This document shows, one piece after another, positions 2,618 through 48,270 of a stretch of 64,000 nucleotides of DNA. The stretch lies in the NCBI GenBank assembly GCA_963678675.1, contig OY783191.1, positions 25,564,955 through 25,628,954 of the forward strand, read 5' to 3'. Made by a program: the position numbers and the translations under genes. The notes under the pieces were generated by a model. The model made no database searches. It saw only the letters and a list, made by a program, of their open reading frames with translations, and was not told the DNA's origin. Source of the DNA: Xiphydria camelus (taxonomy: Eukaryota > Arthropoda > Insecta > Hymenoptera > Xiphydriidae). The first letter of the stretch is position 1. Each line of letters opens with the position of its first letter.

Positions 2618-3089
2618 ATTATACTAACAAATAAAAAGTACCTAACCTTCCTAATGTAGTGAAATAAAGAAATATTTAAACTATACGAAATAGTTTTTTA
2701 CTTACCTCTGAACTTTCAGTATCTGCTATCTCCACTTGATCTTTTATAAAAAGTAGATCGTTATAGTACCATAATGCAGGCTCCGGAATGTCATCACTAG
2801 ATGCACCTGATCGCTTTTTTTGATCAATTTTCTGGTACTCTTTATTGAAGTTGGTTCGCAGGATATTTATTTTTTTCTTCAAATTATCCTCCGTATAATT
2901 TGGTTTATACTGTTGTAGAGCAGTTAGAATTTTTTTTAAAGCAATGCTTTTCTTATTCTTGTTTAAATAATCCTTCGATTTTACTCGCCACAACTCCGGT
3001 TGATCGCGGTACAAAGCAATTAAAAGTAATACAAAATCTCTATCTCCTAAGTTTTCGAGTTCCACGGAGCTCTGCGGCGTATCCGCCAT
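747..3089 (-). pseudogene. MADF-domain protein of the Harbinger element (two exons)
   Basis: Harbinger elements commonly carry a second gene for a Myb/SANT-like (MADF) DNA-binding protein that partners the transposase. Exon 1 (3089 to 2706) encodes the N-terminal MADF domain: an ALYRDQPELW motif, then WRVKSKDYLNK and a LWYYNDLLFI segment typical of the family. It ends at a GAG|GTAAG donor. Exon 2 starts at 1315 after a TTTCTTTACAG acceptor. It encodes a linker and then a segment around residues RRYAEKIINDTLFEGEMG, typical of MADF/BESS C-termini. Damage: one in-frame TAA where Lys is likely (about 1193), and a frameshift near 1045, after which the Ser/Pro-rich tail continues in another frame to a stop near 747. 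The intron encloses transposase exon 2 on the other strand. Probable partner of the transposase; now non-functional. Confidence 0.82.
1590..1975. mobile_element. 386-bp GGGAATTC MITE inside the transposase
   Basis: Ends are GGGAATTCAA and TTGAATTCCC, followed inward by an imperfect inverted repeat that includes GTTTCTGCCACATT on both sides. Removing it rejoins transposase codons LMAI and VNANYQF. A second copy of exactly the same length lies at 13585-13970 in the opposite orientation. The target duplication may be ATT but cannot be fixed, because the flank and TIR share bases. Non-coding; superfamily unknown. Confidence 0.85.
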
Positions 3090-3109
3090 CGCGTGGCCGT
3101 CTGGTGCAA

Positions 3110-3345
3110 CTGCCCGAACGCGATTGACAATTTATCGATTACACGATCAATTGGGATGCGTCAATGGTCCCCGTCAATGTGCTTCAATCAAATTTCCTAT
3201 CAATGTCCGTCCATCGATTGACAATGGCATCAATCGCTTCGTACACGATCAATTTGATGCCCATTGACAATATTATTGACCGTCTCCGGGCCACTTTAGG
3301 CTATGTTGTGGCCATAGGACGATATGGTACGTAGCGATTTGTAGA
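3110..3345. repeat. Harbinger subterminal ATTGAC/ATCAAT iterons
   Basis: Just upstream of the MADF start the sequence contains many ATTGAC, CAATTG and ATCAAT hexamers in both orientations between about 3120 and 3290, then a GGGCCACTTTAGGC stretch. Clusters like this near transposon ends often serve as transposase or Myb-protein binding sites. The opposite element end is lost, so the TIR cannot be checked. Confidence 0.5.
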
Positions 3346-5069: not shown

Positions 5070-7363
5070 TTAGCCGAAAGGTGATCCAACGTTGCGTCGC
5101 TCGATGCTGCTGCGTCTTCGTCGTGGCCGTCCTGCCCTGGATGAAGGCGGATGATCTGGATGAGCGTCCATTTGGTCTGGTGGAAACCTCTCATCCCGCA
5201 GGAGGGCGATGTCACCCAGTTTTACTGTTGGCTGATGTTGGTGACATCCTTGCTTCGCTATGGTTGGACAGCGTGTCCGAGTATCCATAGGAAGTGGTCT
5301 GGAATTGAAGGCCTCTGTCTGAAACACTCGACATATCGCAGTAAGTAGCTGCCAGAACCAAGTGTTGATGCAGGCTGCGAAGGCGGTTGGGACACCCATT
5401 CGCTGACTGGAGGTGCTGCAGTGAATCTGCCTGTGAAGTCCCCCTTGAGTCTTGAGAAGGCACTGTTCACACTGCTCGTCATCTGTAGCGAGTGTAGACG
5501 GAATGCAGGCCTCCTTTAGCTTCCGAGCCCGTTGTACCGAATCTGCGGCGGAAGCCATGACTTTGCCCGACAGCACCCAGCCAAATTCGGTCTCCTGAGC
5601 GTAAAGTGTGCCAGGCGTACCCTTCCGCATGCCTGGCAGCATGATTTCATCGAGGACGTCAATTTCAAGTATCAAATCGACTTGACCTGGCTCGCCAAAT
5701 GTAGGATCCGCAAGGGTGATGCCGCTGATGTGGGGCCAGTTCTTCGTAGGTATCTGATACGATGGTAGAAGTCCTGTAAGTGGTGGTATCACGAGGGCTT
5801 CTGTCTTGAGGGAGAAGGTTGTCGAGAAGCGAGATCGCAGGATGAGTGATGTGGTCCTCTTGGCCAATCCTAATTGCTGTGCTCCGACACCATTGATTGG
5901 AATGGCCTCGTGAATTTGAGGCAGCCTGAGTTGCCGGGTGAGATGCTCCGTAGTGAAGGATGTCTCTGCTCCTGAATCGAGCAGAGCTCGCGCAATAACG
6001 GAGTCTCCCGTCTCTGGATTCATTACGATGACTCGAGCCGTCGCGAAAAGAACTGGACGGCGTTGTAGCGTTGTTAGCTGCGCGGTATAGCTAGCCACGG
6101 AGGTGCTGCTGCTCAAGCCGGGAGCGGAGTTTTCCGAGACGTCCGTTGGTCCGGGATGTAGACTTGTATGGTGCAGCCCGTTGCAAGTCTGACATCGTCT
6201 AGCTGACCGACACGTAACCAGCTGGTGTGCGCCCAAACAGTTTGTGCATAACTGCTTGGCCTCTACGAATAAGCTACGCCCCTCCAATGACTTGGCGAGA
6301 TATGTAGGGCAGAGACGCAGATAATGTTCTGCTCCACACTGCGGACACTGAAGAGGTTTTGCGGCCGGGTGATGCGTATTAGCGTTCACAGCCTTACCGC
6401 TCTTACCTCGATCGTCCTCAGAGGAATGATTCAGCCAGGAGGATGCGACTTCCTTGCTTTGTGAGGGTGCGAAGAACTCCACTGCTCTGATGCGAGTTTC
6501 TAGGAACTTTTGAAACTCGGGGAACGTGGATGGCTCTCTTGAATCATTCCTTGAAATTTCCCAAGCTCGTCGCGATCTGGAGTCTAGCCGCTCGACGGAC
6601 ATGAAGACGAGGATATCGTCCCAATGGTCGACCGGTCTGTCGAGAGTCTTCAGCGCGCCAAGCACTTCGAGGGTGGTGTTTAGCAGTCGCTTCAGTTCCG
6701 TAACGGACTCGGTGGTGACCGATGGGATGGCGAAGAGAGTGGTTAGATGCGCCTTCACCAATTGAGCTTTGTGCTCATACGTGTGACACAATAGATCCCA
6801 CGCCCGATGAAAGTTTTCGTCAGACGTTGGGATGTTCCGGGTCAATTGTTCCGGTTCGCCGACCAGGTTCGTTTTTAGATAGTGGAGCTTTTCAACTTTG
6901 GTAAGCTCGGTGTTGGAACCCACCATGGCGATGAACATGTCACGAAAGCTGGGCCACTTGACGTACTCACCGGCGAACTTCACTAAGGTTATACGTGGGA
7001 CCCTTCGAATGCTCGACGATCCGGGTGCGCTTTCAGCTTGTACAGTCGGCTGCGCGCCGGCTGCCGGAGTGTTGAGCGAATCGCGATATTCGATATAAGC
7101 TCGCCTTTTGCCACCGTATACGCTTCCTCGGTCTTATCGAACACCTCTTCCACGAAGTATGGTCGGAGTTTATCCGTAGGAACGGCCTTAGTTTTTATGA
7201 GCTGATGAGTATCCTTGAATTGAGCCCACTGTGACTCGAGCGTCTCGATTCGTGCTATCGCGGCTCCGCGAGTCATCCGTGCGGCGCCCATCTTCTGGAA
7301 GTTGCTCACCGTCCTGCTGATGCGACCGAAGAGCGTCTGCTGATCGTCGAAGATAGCTTCCAT
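5070..7363 (-). pseudogene. BEL/Pao gag-protease polyprotein with pol deleted
   Basis: The gag N-terminus (7363 to about 6990) is followed by a frameshift into a 637-codon frame. That frame carries, in order: a DUF1759-type gag region (residues about 1-150), a Cys-rich zinc-knuckle stretch with CPQCGAEHYLRLC (about 215-275), and a DUF1758-type aspartyl protease with the catalytic motif ALLDSGAETSF (about 330). After FGWVLSGKV (about residue 470) homology stops. The frame resumes with a short integrase C-terminal segment around PTVKLGDIALLRDERFPP. RT, RNase H and the integrase catalytic core are gone, so this is a large internal deletion. Gag and protease could once have supported packaging and maturation; the frameshift makes activity unlikely. 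Confidence 0.88.
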
Positions 7364-7603
7364 GTTTTCGAGGTTGCTTTAGCGACAAATTCAGAAACGC
7401 GCTGGATGGAACGGGACACTGCACTAACTCCGGACACACACACTGTAACGCGTGTCCGAGTTGAATTCAGGCGCACACTGATTGGCGCTGAACACTGCAC
7501 GAACGACGCACACACACACACCGTAACGCGTTTCCGAAATGGGATTTTCTGGTACGGCTCGTAGGAGTACCGACCGAAAGAACTCGTAATCCGATAAGGG
7601 CCG

Positions 7604-7621
7604 ATCCGGCTCGAAGGACCA
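7604..7621 (-). promoter_or_regulatory. Primer-binding site, tRNA-Tyr type
   Basis: The plus strand reads ATCCGGCTCGAAGGACCA, which matches the 3' end of insect tRNA-Tyr including CCA, as I recall it. It lies two bases inside the LTR, where a retrotransposon primer site should be. It is therefore a primer site rather than a tRNA gene. Confidence 0.8.
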
Positions 7622-7623
7622 AA

Positions 7624-8172
7624 TGTTTTGTTAGAAAGAAGAAAATACGGACCGGTCCGGTTTTGGCAACGCGAGAAAATCGAATACTCCTAGAGCGCAC
7701 GAGCGTACAGAAACTCTTACGAACTAGTTGAGGAATCCGCGATGTTCAGCCTATTCGAGGCGCACAGAATTTAATGGCTACGCCGAACCGAAAAGAGCAC
7801 ACGCGGGAGCGCAACTACGCGATACTCGACTACTCCGGAGCACGTGTCGGACGGCAGTAGTGAGTGTATCCGAAAGCGCAATTACGCGACGAACGGCGCT
7901 GAATCCGAAGTACGTTTCAGTCGTACGTAGCGAACACACAATAAATCCGTATATGTGCGATGCACCGCGATTATTGTCGAGCACGTCGGTCGGAAATCGC
8001 CAGTACAAGAGAAAACGAATGCGATCACATGTTACGTAACGACTCGTTCGATTCACGGTTCGGACGCAAGAGTGGAGAAGTCTACGTGGCGCGAGACTTG
8101 CGAAGTGCCACGTAGGCCGACGGGAATCTAGCCAATGACTACGCTATCGGTCGCGCAGTTTTGGCGCGAACA
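7624..8172 (-). repeat. 5' LTR of the BEL/Pao element
   Basis: 549-bp partner of the LTR at 4465-5011 with the same termini. It lies directly upstream, in element orientation, of the primer-binding site and gag. It would hold the promoter; I could not place a clear TATA box. Confidence 0.92.
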
Positions 8173-8317
8173 CGCACCGTCAATTGCTTGGCTCGAACGA
8201 AGTCAGCTGAGATTTGATTTGTGTCTGGGCGGGCATAACGGCCAGCAGGTGGACAATGAACTGTGTGTTGGTGTCGAAGAAGAGGACGCTGAATATTTAT
8301 GCGAAAACTGTAGCTAA
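8173..8317 (+). pseudogene. PHD-like C-terminal fragment of the interrupted TIR element
   Basis: The frame running out of the LTR continues to a stop at 8315-8317 with spaced cysteines: DLCLGG..., then CVGVEEEDAEYLCENCS. The ending resembles the last half of a PHD finger, a type of tail I recall on some pogo/Tigger transposases, which would fit the TA-flanked TIRs. The N-terminal part is cut off by the BEL insertion. The identification is tentative. Confidence 0.35.
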
Positions 8318-8836
8318 ACTAAAAATCACTTTCCTTTTTTTATAAATGTTTTTTAAAAATCAGTATTTTTTTGAAAAAGAATCTTTGTATTCAACATTAT
8401 TAAAATCATGTTCTTTCAGTGTTAATAAGTTAACATTTTCTTAAAATAAATTTGTTTTTCATTTAAGACTCGTTTTCTCAATTTATTAAACACTTCTTAG
8501 CTATGTGGCCATTATGCCCTACTCACGCGGGTAATGGCTAAATTTTACAATGTAGGTACTTTCCCTTTTTCCAACTACAATGAAAAAATTCTTACATGCA
8601 CTAGGATGGTTGTTGTATATATTCTATGATTTTGAAGTTTCCAAATCGATTGGAAATCAGTTTAAAAATTCAATAAACCTGATTATGCCTATCCTTCCCG
8701 TACCTATGGTGACAGCTTTTAATGGAAAATAATATGGCGGTCGTCGTTTCATGTTGACTTGTTCAAAGAACTATCGCTCTACGCGCGGAACGTGCGGAAA
8801 ATATCTGGCATGCTAAATCGGGGTGCGGACAGGCAG

Positions 8837-8991
8837 GGCCCCCTTTCTCGAGTCACTCGCAAGAGAAACGTATACGTTTCTTAGCGAGTAGGCCAATCAG
8901 GACCCCCACCACAACGGAATACTTGATCCTGATTGGTTTAGTGGCTAAGATGCGTATACGTAACTTTGCGAGTGATTCGAGAAAGGCCCCT
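8837..8991. mobile_element. 155-bp MITE with CAGGCAG target duplication
   Basis: Inverted ends CCTTTCTCGAGTCACTCGCAA and its complement (with changes) flank a short centre. The CAGGCAG heptamer is present on both outer sides (8830-8836 and 8992-8998). A 7- to 8-bp duplication suggests a hAT-derived MITE. Confidence 0.65.
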
Positions 8992-9868: not shown

Positions 9869-11500
9869 TAGCCGGTTTTACCAACACGGTATAAACGCGG
9901 TATAGCGCTATACTGAGAATAACCAGTACGCAAGCGTTTTACACAAGTATGGTATAAGTCTGGAATAGCATAAACTTTGGAATAAATGCAGACATAACTT
10001 ATCCGGCAGTTTCATCGTGGGATAAGCTAGCTATCCTCAGTATAACCTAATTATTTGTTTGTGTCTATATTCTTCCGTGACATAGTCATAACCTGATCGT
10101 TGTGGTAAATTGTTATTAATTTTGAAATGGAGTTATTTGATATACCAGTTTTTGAATCATCATTTGATGAAGATATTGACGTATTACCAAGAATGAGAAA
10201 TCCGAAGAAAATACGCGTGCCCGGTAAGCAAATAAAAGATACCTATACCTATTATAATTTATAATCAATATATAATACAAAACTATTCCAGAGTTGACTG
10301 TTTCAAAGAATACTTACAATGATGTAGAATTCTTCACTCGATTTCGTTTGGAAAAACAAAACCGGCCAGAGATTATTGGGACAAATACGACATTGCATTG
10401 CACCAAGGTCGCAAAGAAATGCAGCAATTCAGCCAGCAACGAAATTATTGCCAACTTTAAGATTTCTTGCTTTGGGATCAATGCTAATTACTGTAAGTAA
10501 TCGTTTTAATCGTAATGTTAAAACTTTTAATTAGTTATTATTATATGCCGCCACCTCTGCCACCTCCGACGACTCCTCACATCGCAAGGAGAGATAGTTT
10601 ACAAGACTACCAGTTCATCGATCGGCATAAACCGCCACTGATCTCCCAGAAATTAATGGGCGATATACTGAAAGACATCGACAAAGTCAAATTGAAACTC
10701 GTCGCAAGGTATGATTAAACAATTTTATCGCGGTAAACTTTTAATTCGCCAGGAACAAAGAGGAGTTTCGCGTTGTCAGAATGTCGTGGCTGCGAAGGAT
10801 TGATTTTGTTCACAGTGGGCTTTTAAACGTGTTTTTCAGATGGCCGGGTGAGAGACCTTTGCGAGCCAAATGCGAAAATAGCCCTTGCAACGACCTTCAA
10901 GAGATCTTACGGAAACGATATATCGCAATGCAATCGCCGGACAGTAGAAATTACACCGCGACGTTGACGGTCGATAATTCGTTCTAGATTAAGAACTCGA
11001 TGATGCTCAATTTCTCTGGGTCGCAGCATTCCCGTCGAACGGTGCTTCGAGGAACGGCTATTGTAGCCTTGCTTTCCACGCGTGATATTGAATCATGATT
11101 ATAATTTTATCTGAGTCAGAGCTCTGGAGAATCAAAATTAACAGATCTCTCTTCTTTTTTTTATAAGTGAGTCTTTCCCTGCTAGGTAATTTTGCGCGAC
11201 ACATTTTAGATTATAGTTCTTTTTTAATAGGAGGATAGAAGCTCATAGAAACGTCGGAAAAATTTTGTTCTCCCTTCGCTCTTTTACTAGAAAATGCAAG
11301 TTTAAATTTAAAATTTAAGCACGCGGGTCTACAATCGCGAGAATCTCAACGGTATCCAATAATATCAACCAAAGAGGTCATCTACCATTGCATTGTCTTC
11401 TATAAGTAACATTTAAATTTATCTAGGTAGGTATTATACCTTTCTTCAATTCGCGTGATTGCAGTTTTCGGGAACAGAAGTGATACACCCATCGTATAAT
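9869..11500 (+). mobile_element. Truncated Pack-type Harbinger carrying MTFR-like exons, copy 1
   Basis: The left end GCCGGTTTTACCAACACGG matches the right TIR of the complete copy at 42589-45007, and the internal sequence matches that copy for about 1.6 kb. The right TIR is absent and similarity fades near 11500. TTA sits just outside the left end. The element carries transposase exons followed by captured host exons, described under the gene entry. Confidence 0.75.
10127..10987 (+). pseudogene. Chimeric Harbinger transposase N-terminus plus MTFR-like exons, copy 1
   Basis: Exon 1 (10127-10223) starts ATG with an acidic leader and ends CCCG|GTAAG. Exon 2 (10292-10493) is the HARBI1-like N-terminal region (EFFTRFRLEK...), shifted out of frame here. 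Two further exons (10545-10708 and 10840-10987) are unrelated to transposase. They read PPPLPPPTTP, then MGDILKDIDKVKLKLVA, a CAAG|GTATGA donor, and after a TTTTTCAG acceptor a basic segment and LQEILRKRYIAMQSP before a stop. Joining across the intron gives R-W-P-G at the junction in this copy, where the sister copy has RSPGGRPLR. Pro-rich, then DILKD.-KVKL, then SPGG is the layout of the mitochondrial fission regulator family (MTFR1/MTFR1L). Captured host fragment, degraded. Confidence 0.7.
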
Positions 11501-26661: not shown

Positions 26662-26960
26662 TGTTATTTGTAGGGTTGCCTTATATGGCCCCGGTGATGC
26701 GAAAGAGGGAGTTTAGTTCTTTGGACAAGCTTTATTATTAGTTGGCTCTGTGCCCATGTAAAAATATTTTCGTACGCGCTCTCGAGTTTCGTACGCGGAC
26801 TCCGAGGATGATGGCCCCTTTTTGGGAAGTCGGACCTCCCACCCTCTCCAGTCTGTTTCGTTCTTGTGAGGCGACTTCATTATATATAAGGAAGCGAAAG
26901 AGAAAGCTTTTTAGTCTGAATATTCAGTTTCTATGGTGCACAGCAGTTCATATTATTATT

Positions 26961-28313
26961 ATGGCAATTATAAATCCGATCAATGTGTTAACTTTATTGG
27001 TGGCCGTTTTCAGTGTACCAAATGGAAGAGAAACTCCAATGAATAGTGCAGAAGTGCAATTGAAAGATTTATTACAAAATATTATTATACGTAGCATGGA
27101 GGATTCATCATTTCGAGTCGAACATGAAAATAAATTGGAATTGGAAGATTCAATCGAGGATAGTGAAATGCACGCTGTTAATACTGACTGGCTGGAATCG
27201 GATGTCGAGGATGTTCCTCACGTAGAAACCTCTATACCTCCAGAACCATATCCCTGTACACCCGATGAAGAAGCGGTTAGCTTTGAATATAAACAAAGTG
27301 CCATAGATTACTGGAACAGTGGGAAGAAAAGACGTCGAACCGTAGCAGCAGTTCAACATCAGTTTAAAAAAGTGAAATCTGATAGACAATTACGAAGATG
27401 GGCTGCGCAAGTAGGACAGGGGGGTACTCAAAATGATAAATTAATACGCATAGCGAAATATACTTTTGATAAATTTGTAGAAGCTAGTAGATCGAAAATA
27501 ATAGTACATGATGTAGACCTTAAACGATGGGCTTTACAAGCAAAAGAAGTAGAGAATCTTCCAACCTTCAAAGCAAGTCAAACATGGTTGAGGTCATTCA
27601 AGAAAGCATATAGAATTGTCTCTCGAAAGATCACAAAGTTTGTAACGAGAAAAAACGTTGAGGGTGAGGAAAGTTTGAAAGTACGAAGCCATGCCTTCGT
27701 AGAACAAGTGAAGCCACTCATTACACAATATGGACCACAAAATGTATTTAACTCTGATCAGAGTGGATTTAATTTAGAAATACATTCTGGCCGAACTTTA
27801 GCTACATCGGGGCAAAAAAAAATTGAAGCTGTGGTACAATCAATATCTTCTACAACCCACAGCTATACTATACAACCCACCATATCTGCTGATGGAAAAC
27901 TACTGTCGCCTCTTTATGTGGTATTAAAAGAGGCTAGTGGGCAATTGGGAGAACGAGTGCAACAAACCGTGTTTAGGCCGCCAAATGTATACTTCATGGC
28001 TTCCAAATCTGGGAAACTTACAACCGATCTCATGAAAACATGGCTGCAAGAAGTTTACTTCCCTAACACTGGATCTACAAGCGTCTTACTGCTGGACTCT
28101 TGGAGTGGACAATGTGAGCGAAGTGTTCGAGAAGCTACACCAGAAGACAAGACAATAATTTTAATGACGATTCCACAAGGCACCACCGGACTGATTCAAC
28201 CGCTAGACGTATACGGATTTCGAATGTGGAAGAATTTTGTAAGGAGGTTTTCAGATATTGTAACTCTTTTCAATTACGATATTAAGGAGGTTGCTCAGCT
28301 AACGCAAAATGGT
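26961..28313 (+). CDS. Tigger/pogo-type DDE transposase, C-terminus truncated
   Basis: I choose the ATG at 26961 (MAIINPINV). The frame is open from 26742, but that leader is low quality. Order of parts: an acidic N-terminus; a HTH region around RRRTVAAVQHQFKKV (about residue 125); a CENPB-type second HTH ending in LPTFKASQTWLRSFKKAY; then a DDE_1-like core with first Asp in NVFNSDQSGFNLE, second in VLLLDSWSGQ, third in GLIQPLDVYGFRMW. It would catalyse cut-and-paste transposition at TA. The frame is open over about 450 codons with no stop inside, unusual in this window. It ends in unrelated residues after FNYDI, where the true tail has been replaced (see 25834-26204). TIRs are not located. 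Confidence 0.78.
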
Positions 28314-37217: not shown

Positions 37218-39117
37218 TCATAGATTACCACCCCCTTCTATTCCTTGCTCTCTGTTCCAATCCAGACCTTCCTGGCTGAAGCCACATCTGTTCAGGTACT
37301 CATTTCTAATTTTCCAGCCGTTCGTCTTAATTTTTCCTTCTCTTTCCTCTTTTATGCATTCTTTCAACAGTACCTTTCCCTCCATATCCTCTGTTCTTTT
37401 TTCGAAGTCTACGGCCCTCTTGCCCATTCCGATCCTCAGCCGTTTTCTCTTCGTCTCTTCCAGTACAATATATCCTGGTGTGCAACGGTCCAAACCCAAT
37501 GTCCATTTTAAAAACTTTAGGTGAATCCCCTCCAGCTCTGCCCGCTCTTCCCATCCCCATACCTCTGCTCCATACGCCAGTATTCCTCTGACCAGACACT
37601 GGAACAGCTTCACTCTTCCGACGAAATTATCCCTGAATAGCCTCTCTCCTATTCCCCACGTCTGTCTGACTGCCAAATTTCCCTTCCTTGCCAATTCTCT
37701 TATCTGTCCTGTTGCTTTTCCGTTTCTCTTGAACACATACCCAAGATATTTGAACTCTTTTACTTCTTCTAGCTTCTTTCCTTTTCACTCCCAGTTTCTC
37801 TTCCGGTCTCTTCCTCCTCCCTTACGGAGCACCATAATTTTCGACTTCTCCTCATTTAATGTCAGTCTTTTTTTTGTTTAAATATTTCTCGAGTCATTTA
37901 CTCATGCTTTTCAGTTCCTCCTCTCTGTCTGCCACCAACACCACATCATCCGCATACGCCAGAGTCCAGAACTTTTCCCTCCCAACTACTATGCCTCCCG
38001 CCTGGCCCTTTTTCAGTTCTTCTTCTAGATCCGCTGTCAGTACCGTGAAAAGCGTTGGGCTCAACGGGCACCCCTGCCGCACACCCTCTTCCGAGACAAA
38101 CTCTTTCGATAGCTTCCCTCCAATCCTTACCGCGTTCATTGTCTGCGCGTAAATCTCTTTAGTTCTTTCTATCAGTCCTCTTTCCACACCAAGTTTGTCC
38201 ATCGCTTCCCATAATACCCCTCTGTCCACCCTGTCGAAGGCCGCCCTTAAATCGACAAAAAATGCGAACAGCTTCCCGGATCTTTTTGCAATTGTCCTTT
38301 CCACCGCATGTTGCAGTATATAAACGTTGTCTATGGTATTTCTTTTTTCACGGAATCCTGCCTGATTGTCTGGTAAAATCCCTTTCTTCTCCACTTCTTT
38401 CCTGAGTCTCTCGTTCAGCGCCGCGGTATACACCTTATATGCCGTGTTTAGTAGTGTTATACCCCTGTAGTTTTCCACTCTTTTGGCGTCCCCTCTCTTG
38501 TAGATTGGGGTAATTATCCCTTCTCTCCATTTGCTAGGGAACCCCTCCCCCCTCCATACTTTTTTTAGAATTTCCTGCATCCTCTCCTTTCCTCGATATT
38601 CTAGGCTCTTCCAAGCTTCATTGGGTATCCCATCCTCCCCCGCCGCCTTCTTGTTCTTCAACTTCTTTACCTGTAATTCAATCTCTTCCATATCTAGCTC
38701 CGCTAACTCTTCCTTATCTTCTCTCTTTCTGGTGAATTCTTCCATCCCGCCCCGCACGTCAATACCACCTAGCCCCATAAAGTGATTTCTCCACTCCTCC
38801 AATCCGATGCCTTAGTAAATCTCCGATCTTATCTTTCGTCCCTTATTAATGTACTTCCATATTTCCTTGCTCTCTCTTACTTTCTTGATTTTCTCTAGTT
38901 CCTCTTCTTATTTTTCCTTTGCTTTTCTCTGAAACATTTCTCTTAGTTGCGCTCTACTAGAACTATACTCCTCTTTGTCCCAGAAGCCTCTTTTCCAATC
39001 CTTGTATCTTTTCCTTACTTGCCTTTTCATTACCCTGCACTCCTTGTCCCACCAGGTTCGTTTCCCTATTTCCTTCTTTTTCATCTTTAGACGCTTCCTC
39101 GTCATGCTTTCATTTAC
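37218..39117 (-). pseudogene. LINE ORF2: reverse transcriptase and C-terminal domain
   Basis: The minus strand from 39117 reads a basic linker (TWWDKECRVMKRQVRKRYKD), then the RT palm and fingers: GIITPIYKRGDAKRVENYRG, FFVDLRAAFDRVDR (motif A Asp), EGVRQGCPLSPTLFTV (motif B), and LAYADDVVLVA (motif C, YADD catalytic pair). After a stop and frameshift near 37895 the C-terminal part continues (YGAEVWGWEERAELEG, FLKWTLGLDRCTPGYIVLEE), as in other APE-LINEs. It would copy the LINE RNA at the nicked target. In-frame stops occur near 38900, 38815 and 37888, and frameshifts near 37860. The upstream endonuclease is separated by three nested insertions. Confidence 0.9.
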
Positions 39118-42585: not shown

Positions 42586-42588
42586 TTA

Positions 42589-45007
42589 GGGCCAGTTTTA
42601 CCAAAGCCAAGTTATACCTAGAATAAGTATACCGAGGATAAATTTATACTCTTCTTTATACCTGGTACAAAGCGCAGGCGTTTTACCAGCTCCAAGTTTG
42701 CCTGGGATAACTATTCCAGGTATAAGCGTTGGCCATCTAAAATTATTTTTAGGTTGGTAGTAAGAAGTACGTACTGCGCATGACATTTGGTCGTTTTGAC
42801 AGCTGTTCCGGCGCGATAAATGAAATTCGGAGTTGTTATTCTCAGTATAACCTAACTTTTTGTTTTTGACGTCTTTATTCTTTCATGATATAATCATAAC
42901 CTGATCGTTGTGGTAAATTGTTATTAATTTTGAAATAGTTGATTGATGTACCAGTTTTTTAATCATCATCTGATGATGACATTGACGTATTACCAAGAAT
43001 CAGAAATCCAAAGAAAATACGTGCCCGGTAAATAAAAGATATCTATAACAATATATTTATATTTTCGTAACAATAACTTTTATTTTCGAGTCGTCGATAA
43101 AAGCATCAGGTACAAAACACGTCCAAACATTCGATATCTCACCAACAAGAATGTGTTCAGTCTCAAAAAACTATAAGGGTCGTCACACAATAATAGTAAT
43201 TACAACGTAAAATTGCACCATTTGATCCAAATCTCGTATCGGACAAAATATATTCTAAAATCTATAAACTTTTAAATCGCTACAACTTAAGATTTATCAC
43301 GCGGTGACATTACTCTGAGATTACATAGAGCGGTACAATGTTATCGTTTTTTTAAGTATACGCGACCCTATCTAAAAAGTATACAAAGAGCGTTGTACGA
43401 CTTGATGTCTAATGCCGAGGTATCTTACAAAAGTGTATCAATGCAAATCTAAAATTTTTTCATATTCTACATCGTACGACGGATGTATCACTTCTGCTCC
43501 TGAAAACTGCAATCACGCGAATTGAAGAAAGGTATAATGTCTACCTAGATAAATTTAAATGTTACTTATACAAGACAATGCAATGGTAGATGACTTCTTT
43601 GGTTGATATTATTGGATACCGTTGAGATTCTCGCGATTAGAGACCCGCGTGCGTCAATTTTAAATTTAAACTTGCAATTTCTGAGTAAAAGAGTGAAGAG
43701 AGAAAACAAAATTTTCCCGACGTTTCTATGAGCTTCTATCCTCCTATTAAAAAAGAACTATAATCTAAAATGTGTCGTGCGAAATTACCTCGCAGAGAAA
43801 GACTCATTTATAAAAGAAGGCTACAATAGCCGTTCCTCGGAGCACCGTCCGACGCGATTGCTGCGACCCAGAGAACTTGAGTATCATCGAGTTCTTAATC
43901 TAGAACGAATTATCGAACGTCAACGTCGCGGTGGAATTTCTACTGTCCGGCGATTGCATTGCGATATATCGTTTCCGTAAGATCTCTTGAAGGTCGTTGC
44001 AAGAGCTATTTTCTCGTTTGGCTCGCAAAGGTCTCCCACCCGGCGATCTGAAAAACACGTTTAAAAGCCCACTGTGAACAAAATCAATCTTTCGCAGCCA
44101 CGACATTCTGACAATGCGAAACTCCTCTTTGTTCCTGGCGAATAAAAAGTTTACCGCGATAAAATTGTTTAATCGTACCTTGTGACGAGTTTCATTTTGA
44201 CTTTGTTGATGTTTTTCAGTATGTCGCCCATTGATTTCTGGGAGATCAGTGGCGGTTTATGCCGATCGATGAACTTGTAGCCCTGTAAACTAGCTCTCCT
44301 CGCGATGTTAGGAGTCGTTGGAGGTTGCTGAGGTGGCGGCATATAATAATGACTAATTAAAAGTTTTAACATTATGATAAAAACGATTACCTACAGTAAT
44401 TAGCATTGATCCCGAAGCAAGAAATCTTAAAGTCGGCAATAATTTTGTTGCTGGCTGAATTGCTGCATTTCTTGGCGACCTCGAAGCAATGCGATGTCGT
44501 ATTTGTCCCAATAATCTCTGACAGGTTTGTTTTTCCAAACGAAAGCAAGTGAAGAATTCTACAACCATTGTATTCTTCGAAATAGTCAACTCTGGAATAG
44601 TTTTGTATTAGATATTGGTTATAAATTAGTAGGTATAGGTATCCTTTATTTACTTACCGGGCACGTATTTTCCTAGGATTTCTCATTCTTTGTAAGACGT
44701 CAATTTCATCATCAGATGATGATTTGACAACTGGCACATCAATCAACTCTATTTCACAACTAATAACAATTATTATGATTCTGTCACGGTTGTGATTCTG
44801 TCACGGAATAACAGACGCAAACAAAAAGTTAGGTTATCCCGAGGATAGCTAGCTTATCCAGCGCTGAAACTGCCGGATAAGCTATCCCTGCATTTATTCC
44901 AAAGTTTATCCTATTCCAGACTTATACCATCGTGGTAAAACGCTTGCGTACAGGTTATTCTCAGTATAGCGCTATACGGCGTTTATACCGTGTTGGTAAA
45001 ACCGGCC
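42589..45007 (-). mobile_element. Pack-type Harbinger with MTFR-like exons, complete copy
   Basis: The ends GGGCCAGTTTTACCAA and TTGGTAAAACCGGCCC are flanked by TTA on both sides (42586-42588, 45008-45010), a PIF/Harbinger target. The terminal arms are long: 42589-43045 repeats the right arm inverted, including a copy of transposase exon 1. It is inserted in the LINE endonuclease/RT linker, which rejoins on removal. Inside, in minus orientation, are two Harbinger N-terminal exons and then the captured host exons. Confidence 0.88.
43910..44760 (-). pseudogene. Chimeric Harbinger N-terminus plus MTFR-like exons, copy 2
   Basis: Exon 1 (about 44748-44660; its start ATG is changed to ATA) ends CCCG|GTAAGT. 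Exon 2 (about 44590-44393) is an open HARBI1-type N-terminal segment (RNAAIQPATKLLPTLRFLAS). Then come 44354-44181, MPPPQQPPTTPNIARRASLQ to MGDILKNINKVKMKLVTR with an AAG|GTACGA donor, and 44046-43910 after a TTTTTCAG acceptor. Splicing these two gives R followed by SPGGRPLRAKRE and LQEILRKRYIAMQSPDSRNS to a stop. Pro-rich, DILK-x-x-x-KVK, then SPGG is the signature arrangement of the mitochondrial fission regulator (MTFR1/MTFR1L) family. The intron is kept, so capture was at the DNA level. Both host exons are open here. No transposase catalytic core is present. Confidence 0.78.
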
Positions 45008-45010
45008 CTT

Positions 45011-45358
45011 AAAGGCAGTTACGGCCTCTTCTGACCAAACGACAACTTCTCTTTCTTCCTCCGCTATCTCTATCTTCTTTTCCACCTTGCCGCTTACGAC
45101 GCATTTAGTGGTTGGTGGTCCGACTCTACTCGTTTTGCTATCCTGAACTCTCTTACTCTTCTCAGTCCTTCCAGGTTAGTTATCCCGTAGTCTATTACCG
45201 TTGATCCCCTGGGTCCAACATACGTCAACTCTCCTTTTTCGTCTCCTTTGCTATTGCCATTTAGCAACAGCCAGCCTCTTCTTTCCAGCATCTGTATCAG
45301 TGCTCTGCCCTCCCCGTTGAGTACTCGGTCCTTCGACTCTCTCTTTTCTATCTCTTTA
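45011..45358 (-). pseudogene. LINE ORF2: second half of the APE endonuclease
   Basis: The minus strand reads LIQMLERRGWLLLNGN, STVIDYGITNLEGLRRV and the terminal RVESDHQPL. The last contains the SDH motif typical of APE-like endonucleases. The N-terminal half, with the GGDFNARAG motif, is at 48313-48820 beyond the 2.9-kb insertion. Confidence 0.85.
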
Positions 45359-45361
45359 GTC

Positions 45362-48270
45362 CGTCAGATAGTGACAGATTCTGGTGCCCCATTTTCGCAT
45401 ACAAGCCTCGAAGAGGGTTGAAAAGTAATTCGATGTTGAGTAGAATAAAGAGAAATTTACGAATGGCCCCTGGGGATAACATATGGAAAAATCGATTTTT
45501 CTTAACATAAATAAAAGGTGTTTTTTCCCCATTTTCTCACGCAAGCCTTGTTCACTAAATGATTAATTAATAAAACGTGGCTTCGGAAAACCAAAGGCTT
45601 GAGTGTAGCATGTGGATAAAGGGTTGAAATAATCTTGTAAGAAAAAATCGAGATTTTGAACGATTTTCCCACACAAGCCTATTGGAAGTATGGAAACGTA
45701 CATCGTCACTAGCCCGAAAATAATATTGGCTTGAGTGGCGCGAATGGATAAGTACATTTTAGGGTCGTAAAATTTAACATAAATTTTTGTCGATTTTTCA
45801 GTTATTTTTCCATGAACGAAATTAATTGCAATACACTTATGAATTTAAAAGTCCGTAAAAAAGTAATGGCTTGAGTGTAGAGTGTGGTCTACAAATTTTT
45901 AAAACATAGCAAAGTTGCAGAAAATTGTATGCAAATTGCCGCCATTTTCCCACGCAAGCCGTTTGACATGTGCTTAGAAAAAGTGATTCTAAGACTGTAT
46001 ATAACAAAAGGCTTGAGTGTCGAACGTGGTCTTCATATTAATTATACATAATGTATTTAAGAAAGAGCTGACAAAAAAATTCTAGAAATTGCCGCTATTT
46101 TCTCACGCAAGCCGTTTGACATATGCTTAGAAAAAGTGATTCTAAGACTGTATAACAAAAGGCTTGAGTGTCGGACGTGTTCATCATATTAATTATACAT
46201 AATGTATTTAAGAAAGAGCTGACAGAAAAATTCTAGAAATTTCCACCATTTTCCAACACAAGCCGTTTGGCATATGCTTACAAAAAATGATTCTAAGACT
46301 ATTGTAACAAAAGGCTTGAGTGTCGGACATGGAGCATATTATTTATGTATAAAAGAGCTAACAAAAAATCTATATATTTCGATTCTAAAACGATACAACA
46401 AAAGGCTTGAGTATCGGATATGGAGCATATTATATATCTAAGGAAGAGCTGACAAAAAATCTAGAAATGTTTATGCAGGGTTATTATTATTATTATTATT
46501 ATATATTTATTTCCGGCCTTACGCCATTATAATAGTCAGAAACTCTGTCCTCGCGCCTCGCGTCCTGTTATGGAAAAGAAATTCTTGAAAAAGTTGCAGC
46601 GTGTGAAAAATGCAATTAAATACCTAATAATAATTATGTGGTACATGTAACCCTATTATTTAATGGTAAATAAACATCTCTTTTATTTGTATTAAAAATC
46701 TATGTACACATTCCTTATAGTTTTCGTTTATTAGTTTGTTTCTTTAATTTTAATTTACTTACAACAGACATATATGTGAGGAAAAAGTTGACATATTTTT
46801 TGAATTTTTTTTGCGCGACAATTTAGACATTTTTATTTCGGATTTCGGTTTATCCTTGAAATAGTGAAACATTTTTAACACATTAAAATATCATCTTAAA
46901 CACGTGTCACAGATTCACGTGTCCCGCTTTTTCATTTGCAAGATCTAGCAACCCTGCTGCCACCGTGAGCAACTGAGCCCACATTTAACGCGCTTTCATA
47001 ACGCATGTGGATAGCCTCTTGTGAAGATGTAATAAAGCAGTGCATGTATTTACTGAGTTATTTGTCTTCAAATGGAATAATTGGTAAGTACTGCGATATA
47101 CATTTATTCAGGATGTTCTGACAAACGTGTGCTGCTGACCGACTAAATAGAGCAAGCCAGTCTAGCGATAGCGACAGGCGCCGGGTTCCTCGAGTCGCAA
47201 GCGAAGAGCCCCTCGACCGCGTGCTCAAATTTCAGGAGCCTCGCGGAAGGGCACGGAAGCCCTCAGAATTCTGTTATCAACAAAACTTTTTTTAAATTTT
47301 GTTATATATTTATAGAAGATCATTAACAACATTATCTGCATCGACAGTTTTGTTCTAAATGTACAGGGTGGAAAATGATGGAAATTTCTAGAATTTTTCT
47401 GTCAGCTCTTTCTTAAATACATTATGTATAATTAATATGAAGACCACGTCCGACACTCAAGCCTTTTGTTATATAATCTTAAAATCACTTTTTCTAAGCA
47501 TATATCAAACGGCTTGCGTGGGAAAATGGCGGCAATTTCTAGAATTTTTCTGTCAGCTCTTTCTTAAATACATTACGTATAATTAATATGAAGACCACGT
47601 CCGACACTCAAGCCTTTTGTTATATACGCTTAAAATCAATTTTTCTAAGCACATGTCAAACGGCTTGCGTGGGAAAATGGCGGCAATTTGCATACAATTT
47701 TCCTACAACTTTCCGACGCAAGCCTTCCTTCCGTCCACATCCGATAGTCATGCCAATTTTATAATAATGTCTAACACATCAAAAATAATCTATAGTTTCA
47801 AAGGCTTGAATGAAAAAATAACTGAAAAATCGATAAAAATTTCCGTTCAATTTTACGACCCTAAAATGTACTTATCCATTCGCGCCACTCAAGCCAATAT
47901 TATTTTCGGGCTAGTGGCGATGTACGTTTCCATACTTCCAATAGGCTTGTGTGGAAAAATCGGTCAAAATCTCGATTCTTTCTTACAAGATTATGCCATT
48001 ATTTCAACCCTTTATCCACACTCAACACTCAAGCCGTTGGTTTTCCGAGGCCAGGTTTGATTAATTAATCATTTAGTGAACAAGGCTTGCGCGTGAGGAA
48101 ATGGGAAAAAGCATCCTTTATTTATGTTAAGAAAAATCGATTTTTCCATATGTCATCCCCAGGGGCCATTCGTAAATATCACTTTATTCTACTCAACATC
48201 GAAGTACTTTTCAACCCTCTTCGTGGCTTGTATGCGAAAATGGGGCACCAGAATCTATCACTATCTGACG
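45362..48270. mobile_element. 2.9-kb long-TIR element with AAGCC iterons
   Basis: The ends CGTCAGATAGTGACAGATTC (left) and CTATCTGACG (right) are inverted, and homology continues for roughly 0.9 kb in each arm. A 3-bp GTC repeat flanks it (45359-45361, 48271-48273), and removal restores the LINE endonuclease. The arms contain tandem units of about 150 bp (45925-46470 left, 47385-47690 right), each with a CACGCAAGCC and an AAGGCTTGAGTGTCGGAC motif. The centre (46475-47370) has a TTA microsatellite (46484) and no recognisable gene. The superfamily is open; a 3-bp duplication would fit CACTA-like or Harbinger-like mobilisation. Confidence 0.82.

Follow-up and report, generated by a model that had tools for sequence, protein, structure and literature searches.

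A probable gene-capturing PIF/Harbinger element: the 3' end of an MTFR-family gene between two inverted transposon ends

The window analysed here, that is the whole stretch of 64,000 nucleotides, contains one complete transposable element of the PIF/Harbinger type, 2,420 bp long and of the form GGGCC...GGCCC, and an older, incomplete copy of the same family; the features of both are collected in Table 1. A sequence-only reading of this DNA had placed the complete element at 42589 to 45007, of which the start holds, and the true end lies one base further, at 45008. Short terminal inverted repeats, GGGCC.GTTTTACCAA, are present at both ends, as expected of a PIF/Harbinger transposon.

Table 1. 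Features of the complete element and of its older relative in the window (window positions).
Feature	Position	Strand	Basis or remark
Target duplication TTA, left	42586..42588	.	Read in the window copy and in the copy alignment
Target duplication TTA, right	45009..45011	.	Read in the window copy and in the copy alignment
Whole element, PIF/Harbinger type, apparently non-autonomous	42589..45008	-	21 further aligned copies with the same terminal bases
Right arm: Harbinger 5' end with exon 1, intron 1, exon 2 and start of intron 2	44341..45008	-	
Transposase-like exon 1 region	44658..44755	-	Splice motifs; donor GT after 44658; start approximate
Transposase-like exon 2	44391..44591	-	Open in the complete window copy
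Left arm: second, diverged Harbinger 5' end, inverted, with decayed exon 1	42589..43061	+	
Captured MTFR block, 1,279 bp	43062..44340	-	Alignment to the resident gene
Captured 3' part of host exon (poly-Pro, DILK..KVK)	44179..44340	-	
Captured host intron, GT/AG kept	44048..44178	-	GT from 44178, AG ending 44048
Captured last host exon (SPGGRPLR..., stop TAG)	43900..44047	-	
Captured 3' UTR, 838 bp, end just past AATAAA	43062..43899	-	
ATG spanning the breakpoint	44340..44342	-	AT from element, G from host poly-proline codons; exact cargo breakpoint here uncertain by a few bases
Older truncated copy B of the captured family	9871..11496	+	90-93% identical to the complete copy

The window also holds, on the minus strand, pieces of a Mutator-like transposase (PF20700; 29276-31011), a LINE-type reverse transcriptase (37221-38811, with RVT_1 at 37897-38811) and a 687-aa frame with DUF1759 (5073-7133, E 8e-33), which we take to be probably derived from a retroelement, and, on the plus strand, a 524-aa DDE_1 transposase frame in which a Tc5-type DNA-binding match stays below threshold (26742-28313). 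A reading frame that is presumably a LINE-like endonuclease lies beside the element at about 45094-45363, and 151-bp tandem repeats are found nearby (45933-46346 and 47370-47689). A decayed and different Harbinger occupies 360-2620 and 2679-3131, with a DDE_Tnp_4 domain on the plus strand at 1929-2462 (E 4e-21) and a further frame on the minus strand. The Rfam search of the window gave no match.

When the two arms of the complete element are compared in inverted orientation, about 225-235 bp align at 79% identity (E 1e-47), and, except at the tips, the two sides have little in common over their outermost 160-250 bp. The long terminal inverted repeats that had been read from the sequence are thus found in the arm pair and, in short form, at the tips, and are missing from most of the outermost sequence. 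Judged by this layout, the element is a composite made from two inverted Harbinger 5' ends, and not one Harbinger into which cargo was inserted; it looks as if two elements had fused around host DNA in the manner of the Pack-TYPE model. Since the arms and the cargo fill the element, there is no room in it for a DDE_Tnp_4 domain, and its transposase portion consists of N-terminal exons only.

Exon 2 of the right arm matches the N-terminus of another Harbinger transposase of the window (E 3e-5), and that Harbinger bears a DDE_Tnp_4 domain, but exon 2 has no match in Pfam and none to one other genomic Harbinger copy. The transposase-like exons had been called HARBI1-like, a likeness that we assume; that exon 2 derives from a transposase is suggested by the match within the window. 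As had been observed, exon 2 is open in the complete copy, its reading frame running through the exon without a stop. Exon 1 of the complete copy has ATA where the older copy has ATG, and exon 2 of the older copy has one extra A relative to the complete one.

The centre of the element is a block of host origin, with the exon/intron layout that the sequence-only reading had described; the splice junction, given there as 44181/44046, lies at 44179/44047, two bases and one base away. Capture had been proposed to have occurred at the DNA level, and this is confirmed because both the intron and the long 3' UTR are retained; the intron likewise rules out an origin from spliced RNA. Searched by themselves, the two captured 103-aa peptides match nothing in Pfam at E values of 1 or below. 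No in-frame fusion of transposase and cargo is visible by read-through, as the exon 2 frame meets a stop and the cargo is in another frame. The captured poly-A signal could, we infer, terminate transcripts within the element.

Using PF05308 to search the genome (G000, 357 Mb in 38 contigs), we obtained two exon matches, both in one locus on contig C29 (three candidates scored). This resident MTFR-family gene (G000:C29:5086701-5088943) gives, when its exons are joined, a conceptual protein of 231 aa that matches PF05308 with E 9.4e-16 and 59.2 bits (cut-off 26.3), and its locus corresponds to both exons, the intron and the 3' UTR of the cargo, so that the MTFR identity first suggested by short motifs stands. 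Alignment of the resident gene across exon, intron and UTR also rules out a chance resemblance. The captured stretch corresponds to 7291 to 8943 of the resident locus (L011), one breakpoint falling within the poly-proline codons of the gene and the other just past ...AATAAAAGTTATTGTTACGAAAA; no Harbinger sequence was seen at either of these breakpoints in the resident gene. Since the resident locus lacks the element there, the cargo moved from the gene to the transposon, and the possibility that it is a gene of the transposon's own is ruled out. The sequence-only reading had held that the presence of the exons in every family member would speak against capture; by number this is nearly the case, a single cargo-free relative having been found (L067, described below), but the resident gene shows that the cargo was acquired.

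With gaps set aside, cargo and gene agree at 798/881 positions (90.6%) up to L011 position 8540 and at 370/384 (96.4%) beyond it. By part, the complete window copy is identical to the gene at 131/155 positions of the exon part, 119/130 of the intron, 141/150 of the last exon, 394/433 of the shared UTR and 370/384 of the distal UTR; the older copy agrees with the gene at 868/965 positions overall, and the two window copies with each other at 813/878. The resident 3' UTR is longer by 225 bp (L011 7781-8005), which neither window copy has and which look like an insertion that followed the capture; by eye this segment is partly self-complementary and resembles a small transposon insertion. A segment of 87 bp of UTR (L011 8075-8161) is kept by the gene and the older copy and is absent from the complete one.

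That two copies in the window share the same pair of exons was found to be correct, the second copy matching the first at 9871-11075 (90.2%) and 11156-11496 (92.7%), with its right end unmatched and its first bases missing. In the whole genome, a 31-base word spanning the junction of element and cargo occurs 376 times (193 + 183), the reversed control giving 0, and this figure counts junction words rather than whole elements, some of them lying in local tandem repeats. The 893 first-look genome candidates are likewise not a copy count. At G000:C1:27106571-27107327, three junction words spaced by 363 bases form a small tandem repeat of cargo sequence. Among viral contigs the junction word had no match.

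Twenty-two copies, drawn from the 40 best matches and hence biased to young ones, were aligned: 21 are 2,420 bp long and one is 2,422 bp, nucleotide diversity (pi) is 0.00075, and 8 of the 22 are identical to the consensus. There has thus been a very recent burst of element copies. Matching TWA duplications, 3 bp long as in PIF/Harbinger transposons, flank 20 of the 22, the two mismatched cases being L004 (TTA/TAA) and L028 (TAA/TTA), and these duplications agree with the earlier proposal that the chimera moves as a unit. The base before TWA is C in 14/22 and the base after it is G in 14/22; copies that are stacked have one TWA in common. In L029-L032, copies form stacked and nested clusters, and one such cluster, on contig C28, shows a unit of about 2.83 kb that is repeated. 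Two copies (L020 and L027) share a private base and agree in the left flank close to the element but not in the right flank, and are perhaps insertions into one other repeat. We consider it highly probable that the family is a Harbinger which has captured part of a gene and which moves as one unit.

We also looked for parental and cargo-free relatives. Directly after the shared part of the element, a different base was found at seven places; six of them are cargo copies with a point change or slippage, and the seventh (L067) is cargo-free. The latter keeps part of intron 2, continues into other sequence with a Myb/SANT-like fragment (PF13873, E 4e-7) and ends in GGCCC/TAA; on its 5' side it is truncated by other DNA. 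Two-gene Harbingers carry a Myb/SANT-like gene besides the transposase. On the left side no cargo-free arm was found, the sole left-arm word with another next base being a point mutant of a cargo copy. The end motif was present in 0 of 30 DDE_Tnp_4 loci (150 of 2,075 candidates scored; flanks of 1.5 kb), and an autonomous partner with these ends was not found among them. Many of the 150 scored among these 2,075 first-look DDE_Tnp_4 candidates have long open frames that are repeated at several places, and the genome seems to be rich in young Harbingers.

The best explanation for these observations is a Pack-TYPE transposon of the PIF/Harbinger kind, that is, a host gene fragment lying between transposon ends and present in multiple copies with target duplications. 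We propose that two related Harbinger 5' ends, inverted relative to each other, came to flank the 3' end of an MTFR-family gene, and that a Harbinger transposase acting in trans would have acted on the outermost end of each side and mobilised the whole intervening stretch, with the final coding exons and the intron between them as well as the 3' UTR and poly-A signal. Afterwards the composite spread, with the captured exons as neutral passengers. Sites of the form C-TWA-G are favoured by new copies, and the element probably recreates such a site at its own ends, so that copies stack. Mobilisation of neighbouring insertions together is the origin proposed for composites of this kind in a study of plant elements (PMC8903248). 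That a fusion of two insertions was the capture step is, in our estimation, somewhat better than an even chance; no locus was found at which two independent insertions lie close together on either side of the gene.

The capture step might instead have been a faulty repair, in which gap repair after excision switched into the MTFR gene and then back to a second Harbinger end, with no pair of insertions involved. The breakpoints have no target duplication, the one on the 5' side lies inside a GCC/CCG-rich stretch, and the resident gene bears no trace of an insertion at its breakpoints, all of which would suit such a repair. However, each arm is a 5' end with a regular outer tip, which is what the fusion model would predict, and at several places copies are stacked or nested, a state presumed to precede fusion. 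We regard faulty repair as a reasonable second choice, with a probability clearly below one half.

The fate of the captured exons was followed in the substitutions. With A the complete and B the older window copy, dN/dS is 0.22 between host and A, 0.20 between host and B, and 0.99 between A and B. Between the gene and the ancestor of the elements there are 15 synonymous and 4 nonsynonymous changes, whereas among eight element copies we counted 13 synonymous and 32 nonsynonymous distinct changes (Fisher p 3e-4 for the contrast). On these counts the gene side appears to be constrained and the element copies free, and the exons within the transposon seem to evolve like a pseudogene. The frame is open to the stop in 6 of the 8 element copies, that of L025 being shifted and that of L014 lacking a stop.

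Gene-side synonymous divergence is about 0.24, well above that of intron and UTR together (p 5e-5), and the distal UTR is closer to the gene than is the rest of the UTR (p 0.0025). CpG decay was tested as the cause of the high synonymous divergence and rejected; the pattern could be due to constraint on the gene UTR, to a different donor species or to small numbers. The second of these would imply that the fragment was captured from the MTFR gene of another species and that the loaded Harbinger entered this genome by horizontal transfer before its burst. The 15 synonymous changes, in about 72 sites, are about three times the equal-clock expectation (5.5, by a rough reckoning; Poisson p 6e-4), and such a transfer would account for this figure as well as for the excess over intron and UTR and for the finding of one MTFR locus alone in the genome. 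Against it, the intron (9/131) and the shared UTR (22/433) fit a simple star with the element branches, the distal UTR is 96% identical to the resident gene, and the counts are small and come from comparison with one genome. We therefore hold horizontal transfer to be unlikely; if it were true, hundreds of copies of a foreign gene end would lie beside the resident gene.

Small RNAs derived from the many copies might act on the resident MTFR transcript: the element contains exact matches to 293 of the 1,829 host 23-mers of the compared stretch, including 40 that lie in exons, and the longest shared run, in the UTR, is 74 nt. Such an effect would be possible, and we give it a low probability. 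That the captured exons yield a selected peptide or chimeric protein is very improbable, and a selected passenger peptide is rejected, for although most of the aligned copies are intact in frame to the stop, the splice sites and poly-A signal are intact in the window copy and an ATG lies across the breakpoint, the ratio of synonymous to nonsynonymous changes within the element is close to the neutral expectation and the read-through from exon 2 ends at a stop, with the cargo in a different frame.

The Pack-TYPE reading can be set beside known systems. Harbinger-type MITEs are short, non-autonomous and high-copy elements that are moved in trans, typically without a captured gene. The closest animal precedent that we found is Turmoil-1 of Caenorhabditis elegans, a member of the Harbinger superfamily with exons and an intron of rsp-2 and a piece of cpg-3 (PMC2572040), and thus, like the present element, an animal Harbinger element carrying host exons plus an intron. 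The cargo of Turmoil-1 lies in the terminal repeats of a 5-kb element that has its own transposase and is known from one full copy and eight fragments (PMC2572040); by comparison, the element described here has a single central cargo that makes up half of it and includes a 3' UTR and poly-A signal, with a junction found 376 times. The authors of that 2008 paper state that gene capture by cut-and-paste transposons was unknown in animals before their own case (PMC2572040).

The plant elements are comparable in other respects. Pack-PIF and other Pack-TYPE transposons of rice and maize are, in the available part of their description, non-autonomous, have their ends around gene fragments, and have a proposed composite origin (PMC8903248); a further likeness given there for Pack-TYPE elements of these plants is that local insertions are mostly in one orientation (PMC8903248). 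The Pack-PIF family described in that part is from a plant, its elements being about 0.5 kb long with cargo of 58 and 163 bp (PMC8903248), whereas the present element belongs to an animal-type genome, carries 1.28 kb of cargo with intron and UTR, and has two arms that are both 5' ends. For arthropod MULEs, which belong to another superfamily, gene capture is named as an ability, with no case shown in the part of the paper seen (PMC13359780). Among the listed titles and abstract openings of the open literature (subscription papers being outside this scope), we found no insect Harbinger that was described as carrying captured exons.

In plants, much of the shuffling of genes stems from their capture by cut-and-paste transposons, a process that has rarely been documented in animals. 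Here a single assembly combines a captured gene end in high copy number, a gene of the source type and the breakpoints, and it also holds older and younger subfamilies of the element, stacked copies and near-identical recent copies. Because these features are found together, the fusion model could be tested directly, as could the fate of the exons after their capture and any action that small RNAs may have on the source gene.
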